Of a DNA stretch of 50,074 nucleotides, positions 31,422 to 47,065 are shown in pieces. A program made the translations under genes and the position numbers. Source of the DNA: Vulcanimicrobiota bacterium (GTDB taxonomy: Bacteria; Vulcanimicrobiota; Vulcanimicrobiia; Vulcanimicrobiales; Vulcanimicrobiaceae); NCBI GenBank assembly GCA_019240755.1, contig JAFAXS010000024.1, positions 1 to 50,074 of the forward strand. Direction: 5' to 3'. The notes beneath the pieces were generated by a model. That model searched no databases, was not told the origin of the DNA, and saw only the letters and a program-made list of their open reading frames with translations. Positions within the stretch are counted from its first letter, which is position 1. Every line of letters starts with the position of its first letter.

Positions 31422-32000
31422 TCACTCCGGCAGCTCTTTAAATGACTGCTTGACGCGATACTCGCTGGCCGGATAGCGCGAGCGGAGAGCGGCCCACTGG
31501 GTCAATAGCTCGTCGCTATCCGGATCGCGACGGTATCGCGCGACGCCGAGATAGTATTGCGCTTCCGGCGCCGCGTACGTCGTGGAAAAGCGGCGCAGCA
31601 CGTCGCCATAGATCGCTTCCGCCTGATCGAAGCGCTTGAGCCGCAAGTAGGCCATGCCATAACCGCACAGCGTTCGCGCCATGAACTCCGGCGGCGGCAA
31701 GAAGCCGTCCCAGCGATAGAGCTCGAATCCGTCATGATTCAGTATCCGGATGTCCGGCGTCCAGATGTGATGAATGTCGCGCAGAAACTTGTTGTTTTCA
31801 GATTTCGAATTGTCGAACTGAACGGGGACGCCGTGGGAGAGAATAGTCTCGACGACGGGTGTCTGTGAATACGTCACGGTATCCAGCGCTTGGCATCCCC
31901 CTCAACCGGGGTTGAACACGTCGAGAAAAACGAATTTGCGGTCGGACTTCGCCTGCTCGAGCGCCGCGTTGTAATCGGAAACCCAGGGAATGGTCGGCAT
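31422..32000 (-). CDS. Thioredoxin-fold protein with in-frame UGA at the first CxxC position (candidate selenoprotein)
   Basis: From ATG 32000 (AAAGGAGG 8 nt upstream) the frame reads MPTIPWVSDYNAALEQAKSD, then FVFLDVFNPG, then UGA (31904-31902, codon 33), then GGCQALDTVTYSQTP and on to a stop at 31422. Both halves are in one frame and together make a complete thioredoxin fold: beta strand FVFLDVF, active site xGGC with UGA in the first Cys place, cis-Pro loop WTPDIRIL, then a TPR-like helical tail. Cys homologues of this family usually have NPxCxxCQ here. A hairpin meeting bacterial SECIS criteria follows the UGA. The product would be 192 residues with Sec33-Cys36. A nonsense mutation or base error is the alternative. 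Confidence 0.7.
31866..31885 (-). promoter_or_regulatory. SECIS-like stem-loop downstream of the in-frame UGA
   Basis: In the minus-strand RNA, UGGAUAC pairs with GUAUUCA (7 bp, one G-U) around loop CGUGAC. The stem begins 16 nt after UGA, so the loop is 23 nt away, with a G in the first two loop bases. These values fall within the published bacterial SECIS consensus as I recall it. Confidence 0.55.
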
Positions 32001-32109
32001 CGATCGCGCCTCCTTTGCGGAAGGTCGCTCGATTCGGCAAATACACGGCCTCTCCCGGGACAAACGCGAGAAGGCGCACTGCGCCGCGGCCCCCAATCAC
32101 GCTGAGGCC

Positions 32110-32574
32110 ATGGAATCACCGCCCAGCGCTTGGAAGATCATCATGTTGCTTGCCGACAGCGCACAAGCCGTTGAGGGAAAGCTCTACATCTTGGGCGGTG
32201 GGTGGTCCGCGACGGGACCCATGCCGACGCCATCCGCGATCGCGATCAAATTCGAAGTTCCCTGGGAGGCCGCGAATCGCAAGCACCACCTGCGCATCGA
32301 GCTGCTCGACAGCGACGGCCGTCCGGTGCTGCTTCCCGGGCCCGAAGCGCCGCAGCCGATGCTCATACAGGCAGATCTCGAGGTAGGCCGCCCTCCGGGA
32401 ATGACGCCGGGTACGCCGCTGGACTCGCCGCTTGCAATCAACATCGGACCGTTGCCGCTGCAGCCCGGACGGTACGAGTGGCGCTGCACGGTGGTGGAAG
32501 CGAACGTCAGTCAGTCGTGCGCGTTTTCGTTTCGGGAGCCGCCGGTAACGGTGCGTCTCCCCCCGATGCAGTGA
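32110..32574 (+). CDS. DUF6941-like protein of unknown function
   Basis: The 154-residue protein begins MESPPSAWKIIMLLADSAQA and continues VEGKLYILGGGWS, a pattern I associate with DUF6941 (small beta-rich bacterial proteins). The rest is beta-sandwich-like, ending in PGRYEWRCTVVEANVSQSCA. No catalytic residues are evident. The frame is open further upstream, antisense to the thioredoxin gene, but ATG 32110 gives the family-like start. Its stop overlaps the Rieske gene as GTGA, so the two are translationally coupled. Confidence 0.68.
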   Translation: MESPPSAWKIIMLLADSAQAVEGKLYILGGGWSATGPMPTPSAIAIKFEVPWEAANRKHHLRIELLDSDGRPVLLPGPEAPQPMLIQADLEVGRPPGMTPGTPLDSPLAINIGPLPLQPGRYEWRCTVVEANVSQSCAFSFREPPVTVRLPPMQ

Positions 32575-33004: not shown

Positions 33005-33076
33005 AGCCGACGATCGGATTTGAACCGATAACCTATCGCTTACGAAGCGATTGCTCTACCGTTGAGCTACGTCGGC
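33005..33076 (-). tRNA. tRNA-Thr (anticodon CGU)
   Basis: The 72-nt cloverleaf has acceptor GCCGACG/CGTCGGC with discriminator U, D-stem GCTC/GAGC, anticodon stem ATCGC/GCGAT with loop TTCGTAA (anticodon CGT, codon ACG), and T-arm ATCGG/CCGAT with TTCGAAT. The CCA end is not encoded. Confidence 0.97.
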
Positions 33077-47004: not shown

Positions 47005-47065
47005 CGTCGATCGTCCTCCTCACAGAGCAGTTCTTCGACGCTTACACAACTCGACGAGCGCGCCT

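Follow-up and report, generated by a model that had tools for sequence, protein, structure and literature searches.

Does the UGA codon that stands where a thioredoxin-like protein would carry its first active-site cysteine end translation, or is it decoded as selenocysteine (Sec)? This question is raised by a locus in the window, the whole stretch of 50,074 nucleotides that we analysed, which belongs to an Eremiobacterota MAG of 2.59 Mb (96% complete). Based on comparison with homologues, we conclude that the gene almost certainly encodes a selenoprotein in which the UGA is read as Sec at a redox active site. The locus has the following features:

31422..32000, minus strand: predicted selenoprotein gene, encoding 192 residues with Sec as residue 33; 37 homologues in the phylum
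31902..31904, minus strand: in-frame UGA, predicted to encode Sec (U33) and opening the UGGC redox motif; UGA in 57 homologues, TGC in 3
31893..31895, minus strand: codon of C36, the resolving cysteine of UxxC, which is invariant in the homologue alignment
31755..31760, minus strand: codons of T81-P82, the invariant TP of the cis-Pro loop in the homologue alignment
32009..32016, minus strand: Shine-Dalgarno sequence AAAGGAGG, 8 nt upstream of the ATG

On the minus strand, the frame runs from 32000 to 31422 and comprises 193 codons. Its sole internal UGA is codon 33 (31904-31902), which occupies the first position of the thioredoxin CxxC in the context PG-U-GGC, and its terminal stop is also a UGA (31424-31422); all of this is as described in the original prediction, as is the Shine-Dalgarno sequence (32016-32009) before the ATG at 32000. 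Among the 148 UGA codons in the window with open flanks, codon 33 comes first by the combined coding score of its two sides (15.0) and third by its margin over the other frames. Neither of the two codons ranked higher by margin was retained: the one at 47022 (minus strand) lies in an upstream stretch with a negative coding score and precedes an ordinary gene start, and the one at 240 (plus strand) is unconvincing on inspection by eye. With the latter judged in this way, the window holds no second UGA with convincing coding flanks. We also observed a putative divergent ORF of 194 amino acids (31990-32574, plus strand), which begins within the selenoprotein gene and shares the latter's first 11 nt, and a tRNA-Thr (CGU; 33005-33076, minus strand), which is the sole RNA family match in the window.

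The gene is present in 37 of the 149 genomes sampled from the phylum, with protein identities to the window protein down to 34%, and all 37 copies have UGA at codon 33. Random stops, for which the relatives were checked, are absent; UGA falls at this single codon throughout, and the second "stops" of a few in-phylum homologues are located at the natural C-terminus. Ten relatives on named Eremiobacterota contigs all have PG/PH-UGA-GGC. As foreseen in the original prediction, a gene caller would report the gene as fragments, and one such fragment ORF (31422-31877) exists. Fragments are also what a pseudogene would show, i.e. a Cys gene whose UGA arose by nonsense mutation or by a sequencing error. 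We find this explanation hardly credible, since the occurrence of the UGA in 37 genomes excludes a sequencing error, the conserved flanks are intact in these genomes, and the same UGA is found in other phyla.

The predicted pairing of UGA with Cys at codon 33 was found in other phyla, where we identified 20 versions with UGA and three with Cys (CNGC, CGGC, and CKGC), giving totals of 57 Sec versus 3 Cys versions among the genomes sampled. A sample of 387 genomes contained Sec versions in G180, G172, and G209, all from other phyla, and a Cys version in G190. The small phylum of G190 has a second Cys version (CGGC), the phylum of G172 one more Sec version, and the phylum of G209 (395 genomes) 17 Sec versions, including that of G209 itself, together with one Cys version (CKGC). 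A tree with an uncertain root and several uncertain deep joins requires two state changes to accommodate the three Cys rows. Family membership is sharply delimited: full-length members score >130 bits, while other thioredoxin proteins score <73 bits and match over the first half only.

These homologues also bear on the possibility that the UGA is a true stop, with a separate downstream protein made from the internal GTG at 31877. The fragment ORF would provide for such a protein; however, the thioredoxin fold would then be cut at its catalytic residue. Moreover, W6, D27, F29, and P31 upstream of the UGA are conserved together with C36 and T81-P82 downstream, the Cys versions are one uninterrupted protein, and the GTG sits within the frozen hairpin described below. 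We therefore regard reinitiation as very improbable and retain the reading of one continuous selenoprotein. Around the gene, we found no conserved operon partner, the neighbours being common to close relatives only; larger neighbour clusters were rejected as partners because they consist mostly of ORFs overlapping the gene itself in other frames. A plasmid search for the gene returned a single weak match (28%).

Decoding as Sec calls on selA, selB, selD, and tRNA-Sec, and the check for this machinery in the host genome was positive throughout. selA (522.9 bits), selB (304.5 bits; neighbours in frame), and selD (388.6 bits) all score above their curated cut-offs, and tRNA-Sec (70.5 bits) has the anticodon UCA. 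With this full Sec pathway in the genome, a general recoding of UGA to another residue, e.g. Trp, has next to nothing to recommend it: we found no support for it, the same gene terminates at UGA (31424-31422), and the aligned residue is Cys, in no case Trp. In the phylum, selA is above the cut-off in 121 of the 149 sampled genomes, i.e. in 35 of the 37 genomes with the gene versus 86 of the 112 without it (Fisher p = 0.010); this association is modest because selA is common in the phylum and related genomes are non-independent. The two genomes with the gene in which selA was undetected are G048 (63% complete) and G024 (96% complete, 370 contigs), and the incompleteness of MAGs bears on both.

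Three observations on the Sec machinery stand apart from the question of the UGA. First, the selA match and the gene are both absent from all eight genomes of one genus in the same family (G109-G116), which suggests a loss of Sec use in this lineage. Second, tRNA-Sec in G000 gives two identical matches (L141 and L142; C64:51056-51145 and C171:16642-16731), which have 137 nt in common at contig ends and diverge directly after the tRNA 3' end; they represent two copies of the gene or else a single gene located at a branch in the assembly, and the tRNA-Sec is possibly an integration site for a mobile element. Third, an "inner" TGA of selA in G134 was dismissed as the natural stop of that gene.

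A bacterial SECIS element is a hairpin that directly follows the UGA on its 3' side and has G within the first two bases of its apical loop, and the gene has such a hairpin:

31866..31885, minus strand: predicted SECIS hairpin, which in the window begins 17 nt 3' of the UGA; comparative and synonymous-site evidence
31884-31867, minus strand: conserved core of the predicted SECIS, GGAUAC-CGUGAC-GUAUUC, with the loop at 31878-31873 and an invariant GU

The original prediction described a stem of 7 bp with a 6-nt loop. This stem is present in the window (31885-31879 with 31872-31866, one G-U pair, loop CGUGAC), but its outermost U-A pair is not conserved, leaving a conserved core of 6 bp. Accordingly, the in-phylum hairpin, GGAUAC-CGUGAC-GUAUCC, starts 18 nt after the UGA, one pair later than in the window. 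The six pairs are kept in all 39 sequences compared, which have the loop pattern NGUNNC, in which the GU (positions 2-3) is invariant. At one pair, 36 sequences have A-U and 3 have G-C, a double change seen at this pair only; another pair is A-U or G-U. The helix scores higher than shuffled and slid controls both on pairing and on covariation, but few of its pairs vary.

Synonymous sites point to the same element. In 33 in-phylum genes, synonymous codons are frozen only at +4 to +11 (and -1) relative to the UGA and are variable elsewhere; codons +4 to +11 are those that contain the hairpin. The mean excess codon homozygosity is 0.91 in the frozen codons versus 0.17 in 96 other columns (p = 3e-6), where the control is the other columns of the same genes and related genomes are non-independent. 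The hairpin is absent from the Cys versions. Folding was less telling than conservation: single-sequence folding of the window hairpin is not significant (z = -0.63; 43 of 200 shuffles fold equally well), and a longer stretch of the window prefers another fold. It is the comparative evidence that makes the hairpin more than chance. A larger hairpin (GGAUGC with GUAUCC), which single-sequence folding favours, is broken where its third base changes (e.g. in L038 and L039), and we rejected it in favour of the inner hairpin. As a separate observation, codon -1 is frozen even though it lies outside the hairpin; where it encodes Gly, it is GGU in 25 of 25 in-phylum cases, perhaps reflecting a context effect on UGA readthrough.

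In the phylum of G209, 15 genes have a different hairpin, CUCGGC-UGGAU-GCCGAG, which is equally frozen and located at the same position in the gene (rows L105, L123-L133, L135, L138, and L139; the hairpin list of this phylum has 16 rows for 15 genes since L105 and L122 represent the same gene). From these alignments, we suggest that this lineage has replaced its SECIS or that the element has shifted.

What protein would be made by readthrough? The original prediction described well-formed thioredoxin sequence on both sides of the UGA and a cis-Pro loop, and both were borne out by the profile match, the invariant UxxC and TP, and the modelled fold. The readthrough protein matches Thioredoxin_7 (PF13899) with 35.9 bits (gathering cut-off 27), and the family has features of the PF13899 type, namely the invariant UxxC (C36), the TP of the cis-Pro loop, and the thioredoxin fold; PF13098 is matched by 31 of 32 members. 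In the AlphaFold model (pLDDT 90.7, pTM 0.87), residue 33 starts the active-site helix of the thioredoxin fold, and four helices follow. The prediction of a thioredoxin-like protein was thus right for approximately residues 1-109, but it lacked the TPR-like helices at approximately residues 103-180. By sequence and fold, the first half best matches DsbD gamma and similar disulfide isomerases, and the second half YbgF, BamD, and consensus TPR proteins, with the YbgF TPR domain matching at an rmsd of 1.3 A over 75 columns. Against the TPR models (PF13174/PF13432), the C-terminal half reaches 24.9 bits for TPR_6 (gathering cut-off 26.3, E 2.9e-5). The 192 residues contain no membrane domain, and inspection of the members by eye shows no apparent signal peptide, suggesting that the selenoprotein is probably cytosolic.

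Altogether, the Sec machinery, the UGA in 37 of 37 in-phylum copies, the Cys at the same codon elsewhere, and the hairpin with its compensatory change uphold the original reading. We consider it highly likely that the gene encodes a selenoprotein made via SelB and SECIS, which would be a soluble, probably cytosolic thiol-disulfide oxidoreductase with a thioredoxin-like and a TPR-like part. For the Sec identity, the SECIS, and the fold, support comes from comparing sequences and from modelling; we infer the direction of the reaction (disulfide reduction or exchange in the cytosol), the nature of the substrate, and the role of the TPR-like part. In the mechanism that we propose, SelB with Sec-tRNA(UCA) would bind the hairpin just 3' of the UGA, and Sec would be inserted at residue 33 in place of termination. 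In the product, a small TPR-like domain would come after a domain that resembles DsbD gamma and Thioredoxin_7 and has U33-G-G-C36 as its active site. In the most likely reaction, the U33 selenolate would attack a substrate disulfide or another oxidised thiol, C36 would resolve the mixed selenosulfide, and the Se-S bond would be recycled by cellular reductants; the TPR-like part may bind or recruit a partner protein.

How new is this family? The original prediction proposed a new selenoprotein, and here caution is needed because a UxxC selenoprotein with a DsbD-gamma-like domain is already in catalogues. This "thiol:disulfide interchange protein" (Trx-like 2) is listed with PF13098, UxxC, and WP_011366075.1 (PMC13188914), is assigned to cd02953 (PMC2398784), and was reported in Geobacter and Syntrophus (PMC1794560). 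It shares with the family described here the DsbD-gamma-like thioredoxin domain, the UxxC motif (PMC13188914, PMC9312934), a bacterial SECIS, and Cys homologues, and the PF13098 matches likewise fit the possibility that we see the catalogued family in further phyla. This would affect novelty and is compatible with the selenoprotein reading. However, its catalogue entries name the thioredoxin domain only and no TPR-like C-terminus, and the NCBIfam selenoprotein models all score far below cut-off (best 29 of 275 bits). On balance, identity with the catalogued family seems unlikely, but it is a serious contender.

Comparison with other known systems gave partial likenesses only. The gamma domain of DsbD (PDB 1uc7, 2fwe, 1vrs) has the same fold, with CxxC in place of UxxC; however, in DsbD this domain is periplasmic and part of a membrane protein, while the selenoprotein has neither a membrane part nor an apparent signal peptide, and the DsbD profile matches over the gamma domain only, with 27.6 bits against a cut-off of 330. 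E. coli YbbN/CnoX (PDB 3qou) is likewise a soluble thioredoxin fold followed by TPR repeats, but its TPR part is larger and its identity to the selenoprotein is low; the full-length Foldseek match (E 3.6e-4, 11% identity, rmsd 11 A) is structural only. In the VPGUxxT thioredoxin-like (seleno)protein (NF041383), Sec also opens the redox motif of a thioredoxin-like fold, but that motif is UxxT, the match covers the thioredoxin part only, and the models NF041382 and NF041383 give 14.4 and 29.4 bits against cut-offs of 350 and 275. No model in NCBIfam 20 accepts the window protein or three distant members.

The literature is in line with these searches: a review of prokaryotic selenoproteins with 119 entries has no thioredoxin-TPR family among them (PMC13188914), none of the papers searched mentions "selenoprotein" together with "Eremiobacterota", and in these papers we found no report of the "thiol:disulfide interchange protein" in Eremiobacterota. 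The thioredoxin-TPR architecture therefore matches no NCBIfam or published family that we found, the nearest catalogued family having been compared by description only. We tentatively propose, at slightly less than even chances, an uncatalogued family of soluble thioredoxin-TPR "seleno-chaperedoxins" in several phyla, mostly with Sec and exceptionally with Cys (57 versus 3 in the sampled genomes), that uses at least two SECIS hairpins at the same site. The gene provides a well-defined selenoprotein family that is open to testing, in a phylum that has received little study. Standard gene calling keeps the family hidden by fragmenting the gene, and it could help to keep the Sec pathway in the phylum. 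Because the family is rich in Sec and has two SECIS hairpins at one site, it is a useful natural set of variants for studying the conditions under which Sec is retained in preference to Cys and the way in which recognition by SelB changes.

Finally, a different thioredoxin-like ORF in another phylum (L107; G157:C77:48993-49307) has a UGA at the first active-site position (RPG-U-KWC); its product is probably secreted and is possibly a further selenoprotein.
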